From: Armatimonadota bacterium
Lineage (GTDB): Bacteria; Armatimonadota; Fimbriimonadia; Fimbriimonadales; ATM1
Assembly: GCA_003577165.1 (NCBI GenBank)
Contig: QEUM01000010.1
Location: forward strand, 1-64,000
Direction: 5' to 3'
Length of the DNA stretch: 64,000 nucleotides
Under the pieces are notes generated by a model, which was not told where the DNA came from, did not search any database, and saw only the letters and a program-made list of their open reading frames with translations. Made by a program: the position numbers and the translations under genes. This document shows positions 49,029 through 55,997 of the stretch, piece after piece (within the stretch, counting starts at the first letter, position 1; every line of letters begins with the position of its first letter).

Positions 49029-49901
49029 ATGGTTCAACTTGGGTTCGCCGGCCTCGGCGTGATGGGCGCGCGGATGGCCGGCCACTTGCTGCGCGCCGGC
49101 CACCGCCTCCGTGTTTGGAATCGCACGCCGGCGAAGGCGGACGGCCTTATCGAGAGCGGCGCCCTCTGGTGCGACTCCCCAGAATCTCTCGCGGAGTCGA
49201 GTGACATCGTCTTCCTGTGCGTTTCTCGATCGGAAGACGTATCCGAACTCGTGGGTCGCATGGCACAGGCGAGCCGGGGGGGGACAATGTTCATCGACCA
49301 CTCGACGATCGAACCCCATGTGGCCGAGTCCCTCCACGGAGACATCAGAGCGAGGCAGCTGGCGTTCCTCGATTGCCCGGTCACGGGCGGAGAGAAGGGA
49401 GCAATCGATGGGACGTTGACCATCTTCTGCGGTGGCGAGAAGGAGCACTTCGACACCGCCCTGCCCTTCCTCGAGTGCTACGGGAAGAAGGTCCGACACG
49501 TCGGCCCGCCGGGCAGCGGTCAGAAGATGAAGATGGCCAACCAGATTGCCGTGGCGATCAGCGTCTTGGCCATGTCGGAGGCGCTCGTCTATGCGCAAAA
49601 GGCAGGACTCAGCGTCGCCGACACGGTGGATCTCGTCGGTTCTGGTGCGGGGGGGAGTTGGTCGTTCGCAAATTACGGACCGAAGGTCTTGAGCCGGGAT
49701 TGGACGCCGGGATTTGCAGTGTCGCTTCAACAGAAGGACCTCTCTTATGCTCTTGCGAGCGCGAGAGACTCTGGAGCGTGCCTGCCGGGTGCTGCCCTGA
49801 CTCACCAGCTGTTTGCGGCCTTGGAGGCGAGCGGAAGGGGGGGGGACGCAACTCCGGCCCTCTTCGAGATTCTGGAACAACTCAGCGGTGGACGCGACTA
49901 A
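49029..49901 (+). CDS. Beta-hydroxyacid dehydrogenase (3-hydroxyisobutyrate dehydrogenase family)
   Basis: 290 residues. The N-terminal Rossmann fold starts QLGFAGLGVMGARMAGHLLR; DCPVTGGEKGAIDGTL is the substrate-binding signature and GQKMKMANQIAVAIS contains the catalytic Lys in GxxxKxxxN. It should oxidise a short beta-hydroxyacid such as 2-hydroxy-3-oxopropionate or 3-hydroxyisobutyrate with NAD(P). Its 3' end overlaps the ABC ATPase start by 14 bp. Confidence 0.9.
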   Translation: MVQLGFAGLGVMGARMAGHLLRAGHRLRVWNRTPAKADGLIESGALWCDSPESLAESSDIVFLCVSRSEDVSELVGRMAQASRGGTMFIDHSTIEPHVAESLHGDIRARQLAFLDCPVTGGEKGAIDGTLTIFCGGEKEHFDTALPFLECYGKKVRHVGPPGSGQKMKMANQIAVAISVLAMSEALVYAQKAGLSVADTVDLVGSGAGGSWSFANYGPKVLSRDWTPGFAVSLQQKDLSYALASARDSGACLPGAALTHQLFAALEASGRGGDATPALFEILEQLSGGRD

Positions 49902-51399
49902 CCCCGCGCCCGCCGTAAAGATGCTGGGGATCTCCAAGCGATTCGGCCGCGTGCGCGCGAACGATTCGATCGACTTCACCGTTTCCCGGGGCACGCTCCA
50001 CGCGATCATCGGCGAGAACGGCTCCGGCAAGTCGACTCTAATGCGGATTCTCTATGGGAGTCTAAGACCTGATCGTGGACGCATCGAAATCGACGGTCAG
50101 CGCGTCAGTTTCCACTCTCCGAAGGACGCGATTGGCCTCGGAGTTGGGATGGCGAGCCAACAGCCGTCCATCATCCCGGAGCTGAGTTGCATCGAGAACC
50201 TGCTGCTTGGCGCGGGCGGACCTTTCTTGCTTCAGCGGGATGCCGCGATCGCGAAAGCGAGCGCAGACGCAAAGAGGCTTGGATTCGAGTTCGAGTGGAC
50301 GCGCTCTGCGGGCGAATCCGGTCCCGCAGGGATGCAGAAGCTCGAGATCCTTCGGCAACTTTGGCGAGGCGCGAGACTTCTTATCCTGGACGAGCCGACG
50401 GTATTGCTTTCCCCGCTCGATACAGAGGCGCTCTTTCGAAATCTCAAGTCGTACGTCGAAGAGGGCAACACCGTCATTCTCGTGACGCACCGCCTCCGAG
50501 ACGTCGTGGACTTCTGCACGCATGCGACGGTCTTGCGGGGGGGCAAGAAGGTCTCCGACCTCATCGTGTCGGAGACGAGCCTTGATCAGATGTCCTCTCT
50601 GATCGTCGGAGAAACCGCGGCGCCTGCCTCCGCAACTGTGGGTTCGCCGGGAGATGCGCTGTTGTCGTTGAAGGACTTCCACGCTCTCCAGGAGGACGGC
50701 CGAATCGCAGCCACGGTCGAGCAACTCACGGTCCGATCGGGAGAGATCGTCGGCATCGCCGGCGTGGACGGCAACGGCCAGCGGCCGTTCCTCGAATCGC
50801 TTCTCGGCGTTCGGAGGCATAAGGGGTCCCTCGTTCTCGCCGGAACCGACATCGGCAGGTGGTCCGTGCGAGAACGCATTGCGGGGGGGGTGACGCTCAT
50901 TCCCGAAGTGGTGCAGACGGAGGGTCTGGTTCTGGATTGGCCCCTCTTGGACAACGCGCTCATCGGAAACCAGTGGCGCAAGGAGTTTCGGAGGTCTGGT
51001 CTGATCGATCGCAGATCCAAGATCGGATACGCAGGCCGGATGGCTGCGCGCATGCGAGCGAAAGTGCGTTCGGTGGAAGAGCCCGCGCAGAATCTGAGCG
51101 GAGGCAATCAGCAGAGGTTCGCAGTCGGGCGAGCGCTCGAAATGAAGCCGAGGGTCTGTCTCGGACTTCAGCCCACGCGCGGACTCGACGTCAGCGGAGC
51201 GGCGACGTTCTATGAAGAGGTCGCGAGTCTGTGCGGGGAGGGGGCTTGTGCGATCCTTGTCAGCAACGAACTCGACGAACTCCTCGAACGCTGTCATCGC
51301 GTTCTCGTGATGTTCGCCGGCAGGCTGCTCGAGGTTCCTGAATCCAAGTCGAAGGACCGGCACGCGATCGGCCGCATGATGGTCGGGCTCGATCCATGA
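49888..51399 (+). CDS. ABC transporter ATPase, nucleoside/BMP-type (two cassettes)
   Basis: 503 residues from GTG 49888. Two ABC cassettes as in sugar and nucleoside importers (YufO/NupO-like). The first has Walker A GENGSGKST, LILDEPT Walker B and H-loop LVTHRL; the signature is weak (GMQKLEILRQL). In the second the Walker A is degenerate (GVDGNGQRPF), the signature is LSGGNQQRFAVGRAL and the Walker B region reads LGLQPTRGLD. It forms a complex with the two permeases encoded next (ATGA overlaps). A BmpA-type binding lipoprotein is not in the window. Confidence 0.9.
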   Translation: MDATNPAPAVKMLGISKRFGRVRANDSIDFTVSRGTLHAIIGENGSGKSTLMRILYGSLRPDRGRIEIDGQRVSFHSPKDAIGLGVGMASQQPSIIPELSCIENLLLGAGGPFLLQRDAAIAKASADAKRLGFEFEWTRSAGESGPAGMQKLEILRQLWRGARLLILDEPTVLLSPLDTEALFRNLKSYVEEGNTVILVTHRLRDVVDFCTHATVLRGGKKVSDLIVSETSLDQMSSLIVGETAAPASATVGSPGDALLSLKDFHALQEDGRIAATVEQLTVRSGEIVGIAGVDGNGQRPFLESLLGVRRHKGSLVLAGTDIGRWSVRERIAGGVTLIPEVVQTEGLVLDWPLLDNALIGNQWRKEFRRSGLIDRRSKIGYAGRMAARMRAKVRSVEEPAQNLSGGNQQRFAVGRALEMKPRVCLGLQPTRGLDVSGAATFYEEVASLCGEGACAILVSNELDELLERCHRVLVMFAGRLLEVPESKSKDRHAIGRMMVGLDP

Positions 51400-52421
51400 T
51401 TCGCGTCACGCTCGCGATCGCCGCCGCTCTCGGCGTCCTCGCCGCGCTCTTGGCGTTGGCTGGTGTGCCGCTGCGCGACGTGGCCGTGAGTTTCGTGGAG
51501 GGCACGACGGGATGGATCCCGGATCGTGGCGAGTTCGTCGGTTGGCAGCCTGTGAGCGAAGTCCTGAGACGCGCGACGCCACTTCTCCTGACGGGGCTCG
51601 CCGTGCAGATCGCGCTGCAGGCGGGTTCGTTCAACATCGGTGCAGAGGGGCAGTTGCGGGTGGGGGGGCTCGTAGCCGCGTGGGCGTGCCTCAGTTTGGG
51701 ACTGACAGGGCCTCTCGGGATCGTCGTTGCGACGATCTTGGGAGCGGCTGCGGGGCTCCTCTGGGCCGCGCCCGCAGCCTGGATTCGCGCCTTTCGGGGG
51801 GGGCACGAGGTGATCTCCACGATCATGCTCAACTATGTGGCCGTATTCGCGACGGAGTTCGTCGTCTCGGGCCCGATGCAGGAGCGACCTGGCGGCGAGC
51901 CGACGACCGCAGTCATCCCTGAGGCCGCGTCCCTGTCGGCGATCACTTTCGGCGGCGGATTCGTGCTCTATCCGGCGCTTCTCGTCGGGATCGGACTCGC
52001 GATTCTGGCGCGGCTCTGGCTGAACCGAACACCTCCCGGATTCGAACACCGCCTCGTCGGTGCGAACCCGTCGGCGGCCGCCTATGCGGGCGTCAAGACG
52101 AAGTGGGTGTCCTTGCGCGCGCTCCTGCTGAGCGGCGCGGTCGCGGGAGTCGCGGGAGCGCTGCATCTCTTGGGACAGGAGCGACGGTACTCGATTGGCT
52201 TCTCCCCTGGGTACGGATTCGACAGCCTCGGCGTCGCGTTGCTTGCCGGAGGGCATCCGCTGGGCGTGCTGCCTGCGGCGCTGCTGTTTGCCGCGATCGA
52301 GCAGGGAGCGGTTCGCGCGCAGGTTGCGATCGGTTTGCCGAAGGAGATCTCCTTCGTGATTCAAGGATTGCTTCTCCTTCTCGTCGCCTATGTTCGGTGG
52401 CGGAGGAGATCAACGCTATGA
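51396..52421 (+). CDS. ABC transporter permease, nucleoside/BMP-type, subunit 1
   Basis: 341 residues, about nine hydrophobic helices. FNIGAEGQLRVGGLVAAWA and FRGGHEVISTIMLNYVAVFA are signature segments of the BPD_transp_2 family in nucleoside importers. Start ATG overlaps the ATPase stop by 4 bp. Confidence 0.9.
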   Translation: MIRVTLAIAAALGVLAALLALAGVPLRDVAVSFVEGTTGWIPDRGEFVGWQPVSEVLRRATPLLLTGLAVQIALQAGSFNIGAEGQLRVGGLVAAWACLSLGLTGPLGIVVATILGAAAGLLWAAPAAWIRAFRGGHEVISTIMLNYVAVFATEFVVSGPMQERPGGEPTTAVIPEAASLSAITFGGGFVLYPALLVGIGLAILARLWLNRTPPGFEHRLVGANPSAAAYAGVKTKWVSLRALLLSGAVAGVAGALHLLGQERRYSIGFSPGYGFDSLGVALLAGGHPLGVLPAALLFAAIEQGAVRAQVAIGLPKEISFVIQGLLLLLVAYVRWRRRSTL

Positions 52422-53272
52422 CATTGGATTGGATGGACATCGGCGGCGCGACGTTGCGATTAGGTGGGCCGCTCTGCCTCGCCGCCATGGCGGGTCTCAT
52501 CAGCGAAAGGAGCGGTGTGATCAACATCGGCCTGGAGGGAAAGATGTTGGCGGCGGCTGCAGGAACGTCGTTTGTGAGCGCGATGACGGGCAACCCTCTC
52601 CTTGGAATCGCGGTCGGCATCGCGTCTGCTGTCCTGTTCGCGCTTCTTCACGCGATTTCAGTCATCGTCTTCCGCATCGACCACGTAGTGAGCGGGATGG
52701 CGATCAACGCCGTTTCGTTCGGCATCACAGGTTATCTCGCAAAACTCCTAACGGCGCGCGGAGCCGATCAAGACTTCGATTCCATTCCTCAACCCGTGTT
52801 CATTCTGTTCGCAATCGCCGCGCCGCTTCTGATCGCGTGGGCGCTTCGCTCGACGAATTGGGGATTGCGTTTGACTGCCGTCGGACACAGCGGTGCGAAG
52901 TCGCGGGAGGCTGGAGTGGATCCGGTCAAGGTGAGGTGGAACGCGCAACTTTGGGTCGGCGTTCTTGCCGGCATCTCGGGAGCGATGCTCGTTTCGCAGC
53001 CGGAGCAGTTCGGGGTCGGGATGACGGCAGGTAGAGGATTCATCGCGCTCGCCGCTCTCATCTTCGGCGGTTGGCGTCCGATACCGACTGCGCTTGCCGC
53101 GTTTTCCTTCGGGTTCTTCGATGCGCTTCAACTCCGACTCCAGGGAGAGAAGGTCGCGGGAGTCGAATGGCCCTCGCAGATGTGGGCGGCGTTGCCGTAT
53201 CTGCTGACTCTGATCGCATTGGCCGGCTTTTTGATGAAGTCGCGTCAGCCCGCCGCGCTTGGGAAGGAGTGA
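52418..53272 (+). CDS. ABC transporter permease, nucleoside/BMP-type, subunit 2
   Basis: 284 residues from ATG 52418 (4-bp overlap with subunit 1). ISERSGVINIGLEGKMLAAA and DHVVSGMAINAVSFGITGYL are the family's conserved parts; eight or so membrane helices. Last gene of the transporter operon; a hairpin follows at 53289. Confidence 0.9.
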   Translation: MTLDWMDIGGATLRLGGPLCLAAMAGLISERSGVINIGLEGKMLAAAAGTSFVSAMTGNPLLGIAVGIASAVLFALLHAISVIVFRIDHVVSGMAINAVSFGITGYLAKLLTARGADQDFDSIPQPVFILFAIAAPLLIAWALRSTNWGLRLTAVGHSGAKSREAGVDPVKVRWNAQLWVGVLAGISGAMLVSQPEQFGVGMTAGRGFIALAALIFGGWRPIPTALAAFSFGFFDALQLRLQGEKVAGVEWPSQMWAALPYLLTLIALAGFLMKSRQPAALGKE

Positions 53273-53338: not shown

Positions 53339-53848
53339 CTACTTCACGGCGATGCCCTTGGCTTTGAGGGTCTTACGTATGCGAGCCTCGTCGAACCCGC
53401 ACATTCGATCGAGAACGACGCCCTTGCTGTCCACGACGTAGTTCGATGGATAGGCTTGGATGCCGAACTTCTTGTGGACTTCGGTCGGAGCCATCAGCGG
53501 CGTCAATTCGAATCCGTTCTCTCCGAAATACTTCTTGATCGTGTCCGCCGAGTCTCCGATGTTCATCGCCAACATCCCAAGACCGGAGGCTTTTCCTTCC
53601 GCGTACAGTTTCTGAAGGTGAGGCAACTCCTCACGGCAGCCCCCTCAGTTGTAGAACCAGAAGTTGATCAGGGTCGCCTTGTTCTTCTTGACGTAGTCGA
53701 GCAACTTGACTTTCGCGCCCGTGTGGGTCGGGATCTCGTAGTCGGGGATCGTCTGCCCGACCTTGAGCATCTGCTTTTCGTACTCAGGAAAGGTCTGAGG
53801 CGGAACGGCCAGAGCGCAAGTGGCGACCGCCAGCGTGGTTAGTATCAT
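53339..53848 (-). CDS. TlpA/thioredoxin-like selenoprotein candidate (Sec-Gly-Gly-Cys active site), exported
   Basis: One minus-strand frame runs from ATG 53848 to a stop at 53339, interrupted only by TGA at 53647-53645. With Sec there, the product has 169 residues. A signal peptide (MILTTLAVATCALA) is followed by VGQTIPDYEIPTHTGAKVKL and ATLINFWFYN, the usual strand before a TlpA active site, then Sec68-Gly-Gly-Cys71 and REELPHLQKLYAEG. This is exactly where TlpA has CxxC, and the downstream VHKKFGIQAYPSNYVVDSKG is the cis-Pro region. So UGA replaces the first, nucleophilic Cys. A hairpin starts 10 nt after the UGA. A chance point mutation at precisely this residue with a SECIS-like hairpin is much less likely. 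Confidence 0.85.
53618..53634 (-). promoter_or_regulatory. Candidate bacterial SECIS hairpin
   Basis: In the mRNA, GUGAGG-AGUUG-CCUCAC is a perfect 6-bp stem with a 5-nt loop. It starts 10 nt after the UGA; the loop G is the 18th nucleotide after UGA and is followed by U. The total of 17 nt matches the minimal fdhF-type upper stem-loop. The 5.3-kb gene has the same spacing. Confidence 0.75.
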
Positions 53849-53982
53849 GTGAGCCTCCAGTGGGACGTCACCAGGCGTCCCTCACGCAGGATGATACGCC
53901 ATACTCCCGGGTACGAAGCCCTAATGCCTCGGCCTAAAGCCCCGGCTACCGGGTAATTGGTCGGTGGAAAGGGAGGTTCACT

Positions 53983-55251
53983 CTGTTTAGAGCCATCTTT
54001 GTCGCTTGTTCGCTGCTCGCCGCGTCGCTCGGCGCCGCGCAGACGCTTTCGCTCATGGAGGCGCTCGAAATGGCTCGCGAGAACAACGGGACACTCGCCG
54101 CCGCCCTAAAGTCCCGCGAGTCGGCCGAGTCCTCCGTTCGCTCTGCGATGTCGGCCTTCTGGCCGACGATCACGCCACAGTATCGGCACACGAACACCCG
54201 CATCGATCCGGGCCTGTTCACGGGCACGACTAGAACGGACGAGTTGGGCATCTTCGCCAACTGGACTCTCCTCGACGGAGGACAGAGGTGGTTCTCGCTC
54301 GAGCGTGCGAAGCGGATGAGTCAGGCGAGCGCATACCAAACCGTGTGGACCATGCGCCAGGTTCTGTTCAACGTCGTCGTTCAGTACTACGATGCTCTGC
54401 GAAGCAACGAACTGCTCAAAGTGGCGGATGCTCAGGTGGCCCGCGCGAAGCAGGCGCTCGAAATCACGCAGAAGCAGGTCGAGATGGAGATCGCAGCCGC
54501 CAAAGACATCCTTCAAGCGAAAGCCGATTTGGCAAACGCGGTGGTGAATCAACTCACGGCGAAGAATGCGGTGAAATCGTCTCATGCGTCTCTCAAAGCG
54601 ACGATCGGTTGGCCCTCGAGAGAAGATTTGCCGGAACTGACAGAGCCTCAGCGAATCGGCGAAATCGCGCCCGAGTTGACCATCGATCAAGCATGGGAGG
54701 AAGGGATCAAAAACCGCCCGGACTTAATGGACTCGCAGAGGCGAATCGAAGCCTCGAAGTTCGACGTTTTGAATGCGAAGCGGTCGGCCGGCCTCGACTG
54801 GTCGCTCAACCTCAGCTACGATCGAACGTTTGAATCAGAGGACTTTGGGCAGCGCGCGCTCACCTTCTTAGTTCACTTTCCGCTGTTCGATGGCGGCTTC
54901 TCGAGGGAACTCGTCAAACAGTCCGAACTTTCGTTCGAAGCGAGCCAGAAGTTGTTCGACCAGGATCTTCGTGACGTTCGTTCTGAGATCGAAAGCGCGT
55001 TCTATTCCTGGAAGCAGAATCAGGAACGCCTCGGCGCCGCTGAGTCGGCGCTCGAAGCGGCGCGAGAGAACTTCAAGGCTGCAATCGAGAGCCAGGACGC
55101 CGGTGTTGCGAGCATCGTTGAGGTGACGAACGCACAGGTTTCACTTGTGACTGCGGAGACGAACTACGTCGAGGCGGTGTACGACTTCTACATCAGCGAA
55201 GTCCAATTGCGGCTGGTGATCGGTGAGCCGATGCCCGGTGAAGAGAAGTGA
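53983..55251 (+). CDS. TolC-family outer-membrane efflux protein, probable CTG start
   Basis: About 422 residues if translation begins at CTG 53983, preceded by GGGAGG with a 6-nt gap. That start completes a signal peptide (LFRAIFVACSLLAASLGAAQ); the first in-frame ATG (54055) would delete it, and no GTG or TTG is available. Two TolC-like repeats follow, with SLMEALEMARENNGTLAAAL as the standard opening and ILQAKADLANAVVNQLTAKN and FYSWKQNQERLGAAESALEA in the helical barrel. It forms the outer-membrane channel of an export system; an ABC ATPase is coupled by a GTGA overlap. Confidence 0.85.
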   Translation: MFRAIFVACSLLAASLGAAQTLSLMEALEMARENNGTLAAALKSRESAESSVRSAMSAFWPTITPQYRHTNTRIDPGLFTGTTRTDELGIFANWTLLDGGQRWFSLERAKRMSQASAYQTVWTMRQVLFNVVVQYYDALRSNELLKVADAQVARAKQALEITQKQVEMEIAAAKDILQAKADLANAVVNQLTAKNAVKSSHASLKATIGWPSREDLPELTEPQRIGEIAPELTIDQAWEEGIKNRPDLMDSQRRIEASKFDVLNAKRSAGLDWSLNLSYDRTFESEDFGQRALTFLVHFPLFDGGFSRELVKQSELSFEASQKLFDQDLRDVRSEIESAFYSWKQNQERLGAAESALEAARENFKAAIESQDAGVASIVEVTNAQVSLVTAETNYVEAVYDFYISEVQLRLVIGEPMPGEEK

Positions 55252-55997
55252 GCGAGCCCGTCATCTCGGTGCGACACCTTTCCAAGGACTACGACATGGG
55301 AAAGGTCGTGGTTCACGCGCTGCGTGACGTGAGCCTCGACATCATGCCCGGCGAATTCGTGGCTGTCACGGGACCATCGGGTTCTGGAAAGTCCACGTTC
55401 ATGAATCTGCTCGGGTGCCTCGACAGGCCGACACGGGGCGAGTACTTCCTGCAAGGCCGTTCCGTCTCCGAACTCTCGGATGCAGAACTCGCGGTGATTC
55501 GCAATCGCATGATCGGTTTCATCTTCCAATCGTACAATCTCTTGCCGCGCACCACCGCGCTTCAGAACGTCGAGCTTCCGTTGGTCTACGGAGGGACTGG
55601 CAGCCGGCGGGAGAAGGCCGCCAAGGCGCTCGAGCGCGTCGGGCTGCAGCAGCGAATGGATCACCGGCCGAACGAGTTGTCCGGCGGACAGCAGCAGAGG
55701 GTCGCCATCGCACGAGCCATCGTCAACGACCCGGTCATCATCCTCGCAGACGAGCCGACGGGCAACCTCGACACTCGCACGGGCGAGGAGATCCTGGCCC
55801 TGTTCCAGGAACTCAACCGCGAGGGCCGAACCGTCGTGCTGGTGACCCACGAGCCGGATGTCGTCCAGCACTGCACGAGGGTGATCCGGTTCCGGGACGG
55901 CCACCTGGTGGCGGACGAGCCCGTGACCGAACGCCTCGATGCCCGCGACGTGCTGGCCTCGCTCCCGCCGCCGGAACCGGAGTATGCCGAAGCCTAG
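55248..55997 (+). CDS. ABC transporter ATPase, LolD/MacB type
   Basis: 249 residues from GTG 55248 overlapping the TolC stop. Walker A GPSGSGKSTFMN, signature LSGGQQQRVAIARAI, Walker B VIILADEPTGNLD and H-loop VVLVTHEPD are all intact. KDYDMGKVVVHALRDVSLDI at the N-terminus is characteristic of the MacB/LolD/FtsE-like subfamily. The expected permease and membrane-fusion partner are not adjacent. Confidence 0.92.
   Translation: MSEPVISVRHLSKDYDMGKVVVHALRDVSLDIMPGEFVAVTGPSGSGKSTFMNLLGCLDRPTRGEYFLQGRSVSELSDAELAVIRNRMIGFIFQSYNLLPRTTALQNVELPLVYGGTGSRREKAAKALERVGLQQRMDHRPNELSGGQQQRVAIARAIVNDPVIILADEPTGNLDTRTGEEILALFQELNREGRTVVLVTHEPDVVQHCTRVIRFRDGHLVADEPVTERLDARDVLASLPPPEPEYAEA

Follow-up and report, generated by a model that had tools for sequence, protein, structure and literature searches.

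The minus strand of the window, by which we mean the whole stretch of 64,000 nucleotides analyzed here, derived from an uncultured member of the Armatimonadota, carries at positions 53848 to 53339 a gene which very probably encodes a selenoprotein with selenocysteine (Sec) at residue 68. The sequence-only reading had arrived at the same proposal, and it is now backed by the Sec machinery of the genome, a UGA at the same codon in orthologues, Cys at this position in other homologues and a covarying SECIS-like hairpin. According to our model SelA and SelD would make the Sec-tRNA-Sec, SelB would bind the hairpin just 3′ of the UGA and deliver Sec at codon 68, and the product would be a full-length protein of 169 amino acids with a U-G-G-C active site.

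Reading frame and predicted protein

The frame starts with the ATG at 53848-53846, ends with the true stop codon TAG at 53339-53341 (all on the minus strand) and comprises 169 residues, its sole interruption being the TGA at 53645-53647. The minus-strand translation of 53848-53342 reads MILTTLAVATC...LINFWFYN-U-GGC-REELPHLQ...KAKGIAVK, with the UGA (residue 68) aligned to the first active-site Cys of the homologues. No other start codon is found between the upstream in-frame stop and the start of the protein, and a Shine–Dalgarno-like GGAGG (53854-53858, minus strand) precedes the ATG by 5 nt. The position of the frame and of its single TGA had been given correctly before, the strand having been left unstated; it is the minus strand. 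A plus-strand reading of 53339-53848 yields a meaningless frame and was rejected. In a mechanical ORF listing the gene is split into two ORFs of 67 aa (53848-53645) and 95 aa (53626-53339). A mechanical scan of the window detected 128 places where a TGA has an open frame on either side together with a loosely redox-like motif. Because such frames are this common the bare frame is weak evidence, and it is therefore the homology and the machinery which decide on the Sec reading.

The gene stands alone. It converges on the operon of an ABC transporter (49813-53272), and on its other side a gene for outer-membrane efflux and one for an ABC ATPase (54055-55997) are transcribed divergently from it. 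The divergent TolC-type neighbor is shared with one orthologue of the same family (L075) and is absent next to the other orthologues. Among the neighboring genes of the window gene and its orthologues no conserved redox partner was found.

When the UGA was read as Cys, the joined frame matched the Pfam families AhpC-TSA (PF00578, 64.7 bits), Redoxin and Thioredoxin_8 above the gathering cut-offs, with the matches spanning the UGA. AlphaFold2 predicted a thioredoxin fold (mean pLDDT 93.7), and the top PDB matches obtained with Foldseek were ResA and related thiol-disulfide oxidoreductases, in agreement with the sequence matches. U68, C71 and P134 occupy invariant alignment columns, and the fold displays the UxxC motif and a putative cis-Pro loop (P134). 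As had been noticed from the letters, the UGA takes the place of the first Cys in the CxxC motif of thioredoxins, with a Cys at position 71, and this active-site column is invariant in a conserved family. By its fold as well as by its sequence the protein groups with ResA/TlpA, which bears out the earlier description as a TlpA-like oxidoreductase. Since the scores with the NCBIfam models for ResA (PRK03147; 69.1 bits, cut-off 170) and DsbE (48 bits, cut-off 123) stay below the cut-offs, we call the protein ResA/TlpA-like and not ResA proper. It has the same fold as ResA, CcmG (DsbE) and TlpA (TM-score normalized by target up to 0.87, with ResA-type structures) and the CxxC motif at the same position; unlike in these proteins the nucleophilic Cys is replaced by Sec, and the gene does not adjoin cytochrome c biogenesis genes. 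A ResA-like selenoprotein is also described by the NCBIfam model NF041054 (ResA-like WAxxUGC motif protein), but the window protein scores only 26.9 bits with this model (cut-off 300) and has the motif UGGC instead of UGC.

At the N-terminus there is a short hydrophobic segment of approximately residues 1-21 (53786-53848, minus strand), a possible signal peptide or anchor, for which similar segments exist in the orthologues. The pLDDT of residues 1-10 is low. As the N-terminus contains no basic residue and hence no basic n-region, export of the protein appears uncertain from its sequence.

We consider it likely that the selenoprotein acts as a disulfide reductase. It would probably be a thiol-disulfide reductase of the ResA/TlpA type, most likely situated outside the cytoplasm, in which the selenolate of U68 would attack the disulfide of a client protein and C71 would resolve the mixed selenenyl-sulfide. 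The U68/C71 pair would then be re-reduced by a membrane thiol-electron carrier, for example the DsbD/CcdA-type protein of the genome; a protein of the DsbD_TM family is encoded elsewhere in the genome and could supply the electrons. Among the alternatives the one faring best is a selenoprotein with another role, for instance a member of the AhpC/TSA superfamily which acts in a peroxidase-like way. Peroxide chemistry is often enhanced by Sec and AhpC-TSA is the best Pfam match, but the UxxC motif and the neighbors in fold and sequence, which are thiol-disulfide oxidoreductases of the ResA/TlpA/DsbE kind, make such a role improbable. In addition, the motif of Sec peroxiredoxins, PxxxTxxU (PMC13188914), is not seen at the UGA site of the window protein.

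The UGA codon in related genes and the hairpin behind it

Altogether we collected 26 distinct UGA-bearing genes with the UGA at the codon used in the window gene. Close homologues with one TGA are present in four genomes of the same family (46-50% identity) and in further genomes of the order and the phylum, and the same-codon UGA recurs in many other Armatimonadota, Acidobacteriota and Planctomycetota. The nearest relatives are Armatimonadetes MAGs; UGA-bearing relatives from Acidobacteria and Planctomycetota were added by a scan of named genomes with an alignment of eight rows. Read from the DNA, the UGA forms have the motifs UGGC, UGAC, UGSC, UPPC and UTAC. The homologues with Cys aligned to the UGA which the sequence-only reading had called for do exist (CGGC, CAGC, CGPC, CPHC and others), and a true stop was not encountered at this codon. 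A search of a plasmid collection returned distant relatives only (<60% identity).

Immediately downstream of the UGA the RNA may form a bSECIS-like hairpin (53618-53634, minus strand), a candidate which emerged from folding, conservation and covariation. Its stem of 6 bp pairs GUGAGG (53634-53629) with CCUCAC (53623-53618) and carries the apical loop AGUUG (53628-53624) with a G in the second position, 16 nt separating the UGA from the loop. The bSECIS model demands a stem of 4-16 bp, a loop of 3-9 nt, a G in the first two loop positions and a distance of 16-37 nt from the UGA (PMC13188914, Fig. 2). The window hairpin keeps within these limits, the spacing being at the lower limit of the model. 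If 60 nt of context are added, the fold of lowest energy for the window RNA is a competing one which includes the UGA; the bSECIS-shaped fold is obtained when the folded stretch begins 3 or 6 nt past the UGA. An Rfam search of the window recovered only a tRNA-Gln and not the SECIS.

The comparison of UGA and Cys genes is clear. All six stem pairs are present in 23 of the 26 UGA genes and in none of the 32 Cys homologues, some of which encode the same residues at this place without having the hairpin. Compared with shuffles of synonymous codons the mean z-score is −2.4 for the UGA genes and −0.1 for the Cys genes. In an alignment of 25 sequences (A3) 97.3% of the cells are paired versus 88.9% after shuffling, and the pair at columns 17/27 changes in a compensatory manner: 15 genes have A-U and 10 have C-G. 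RNAalifold predicted the inner four pairs of the helix in the UGA genes and no consensus fold for the Cys homologues. A larger covariation set (A5) adds a U-A version of the 17/27 pair; since A5 omits four UGPC paralogues which do not have the window-type hairpin, A3 is to be taken as the unselected count. As the hairpin is complete only in the UGA forms, it offers a usable signature for finding more genes of this type. A paralogue group with the sequence FWGFWUGPC (L125, L126, L128, L130) does not have the GGAGUUUCC hairpin.

These data bear on two further explanations. The gene could be a recently broken pseudogene, or translation could truly end at the TGA, which would yield a product of 67 aa and leave the downstream part as a separate ORF, just as the mechanical listing has it. 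A nonsense-like TGA is in fact known from a TlpA-like homologue in a genome with no selA match (G086, L127), where it lies away from the intact Cys-x-x-Cys and is perhaps a nonsense change or a sequencing error. For the window gene both versions are very improbable, considering that in many genomes the frame is open and the protein conserved both before and after the codon, and that the UGA coincides exactly with the catalytic Cys and is followed by a covarying hairpin. Even less probable is an error of sequencing or assembly, with TGC or TGT as the true codon and an ordinary Cys-containing TlpA as the product. The assembly is a draft and a single base change would suffice, but independent orthologues have TGA at the same codon and for this reason an error is very unlikely; moreover only the TGA genes have retained the SECIS-like hairpin, and the genome possesses the machinery for Sec.

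Selenocysteine machinery and further predicted selenoproteins of the genome

The sequence-only reading had asked for a search for selA, selB, selC (tRNA-Sec) and selD, and the search of the genome (2.75 Mb in 23 contigs, 97.5% complete, 0.9% contamination) revealed all four. The tRNA-Sec scores 76.4 bits against a cut-off of 47 and is called SeC with the anticodon TCA (UCA) by ARAGORN. The matches to selB (376 bits), selA (491 bits) and selD (355 bits) are each above the curated cut-off. The selD gene itself has an in-frame UGA within VDCAGUASK (L013, UGA at locus nt 1531, G000:C18), followed by a hairpin with a GGU loop, and its CAGUASK fits the UxxK motif listed for Sec-containing SelD (PMC13188914).

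Two more thioredoxin-fold frames with UGA, each behind a long N-terminal region, were found in the genome: a TlpA-like one with the motif UGPC, the second of its kind (L117, UGA at locus nt 1591, G000:C16), and a third with UGFC (L119, UGA at locus nt 1609, G000:C1). In both a stable hairpin follows the UGA. Counting the window gene, the UGPC and UGFC frames and selD, the predicted selenoproteins of the genome would number at least four, of which three have a thioredoxin fold. The selenoproteome was sampled through family searches only, and the search of the AhpD/CMD family gave no member with UGA. A genome-wide reassignment of UGA to another amino acid would likewise have the in-frame UGA read, but its probability is very low, as the adjoining ABC permease (52103-53272) terminates in TGA, the UGA frames which came to notice in the genome belong to selD and to thioredoxin-fold genes and have the UGA at redox sites, and tRNA-Sec, selA and selB are present.

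A match to selA was obtained in 88 of 151 related genomes. In the survey selA was present in all 11 genomes whose close homologue has UGA (hypergeometric p ~0.002, ignoring relatedness). An apparent exception is an assembly without a listed selA (G132, 88% complete), in which a paralogue of greater distance has a frame with UPIC.

Lineage and evolution

Predicted selenoproteins in reviews include a Prx-like thiol:disulfide oxidoreductase (PF00578, UxxC) and a thiol-disulfide isomerase-like protein (cd02966, UxxC) (PMC9312934, PMC13188914). Compared by description, these classes resemble the window protein in having an AhpC-TSA/TlpA-like thioredoxin fold with Sec in the first position of CxxC and in having been predicted from an in-frame UGA with Cys homologues; they differ in that the clade studied here stems from Armatimonadota and has relatives in Acidobacteriota and Planctomycetota. 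A TlpA-like UxxC selenoprotein is thus a known type. Our literature search, which covered few subscription journals, found no paper on selenoproteins of Armatimonadota, in keeping with the earlier remark that this lineage is little described. Because the reviews list the protein class and such a paper was not found, the novelty is limited to the lineage. Gene finders split genes of this kind, and selenium use in the phylum is therefore probably under-reported.

In a tree of 58 homologues parsimony demands a minimum of 12 changes of the label Sec or Cys. Its resolution is poor, however, and only two changes are forced by well-supported branches; repeated switching between Sec and Cys can therefore be suggested for the clade. 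A natural Sec/Cys pair is found in L029 (G118), where a UTAC and a CPPC paralogue lie ~1.2 kb apart. A clade with UGA and Cys forms, which are sometimes adjoining paralogues within one genome, represents a clean natural set for timing the gain and loss of Sec in bacteria. Taking the findings to the level of the phylum, we lean slightly towards the view that Armatimonadota possess an undescribed selenoproteome dominated by TlpA-like thioredoxin-fold selenoproteins, of which each genome would have several. In these, Sec and Cys would have been swapped repeatedly while a nearly fixed GUGNGGAGUUUCCNCAC SECIS module has stayed with the Sec forms in at least three phyla.

Two observations on individual records may be added. 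The loci L077 and L079 (SYKE01000058.1 and SYKE01000193.1) are titled Actinomycetota and have the same sequence as G145, a genome from the phylum of the window; the name on the record looks wrong. In three loci of other Armatimonadota (L020, L021, L027) the Sec domain follows, as part of a fusion, an additional N-terminal domain of about 200 residues which looks LolA-like.
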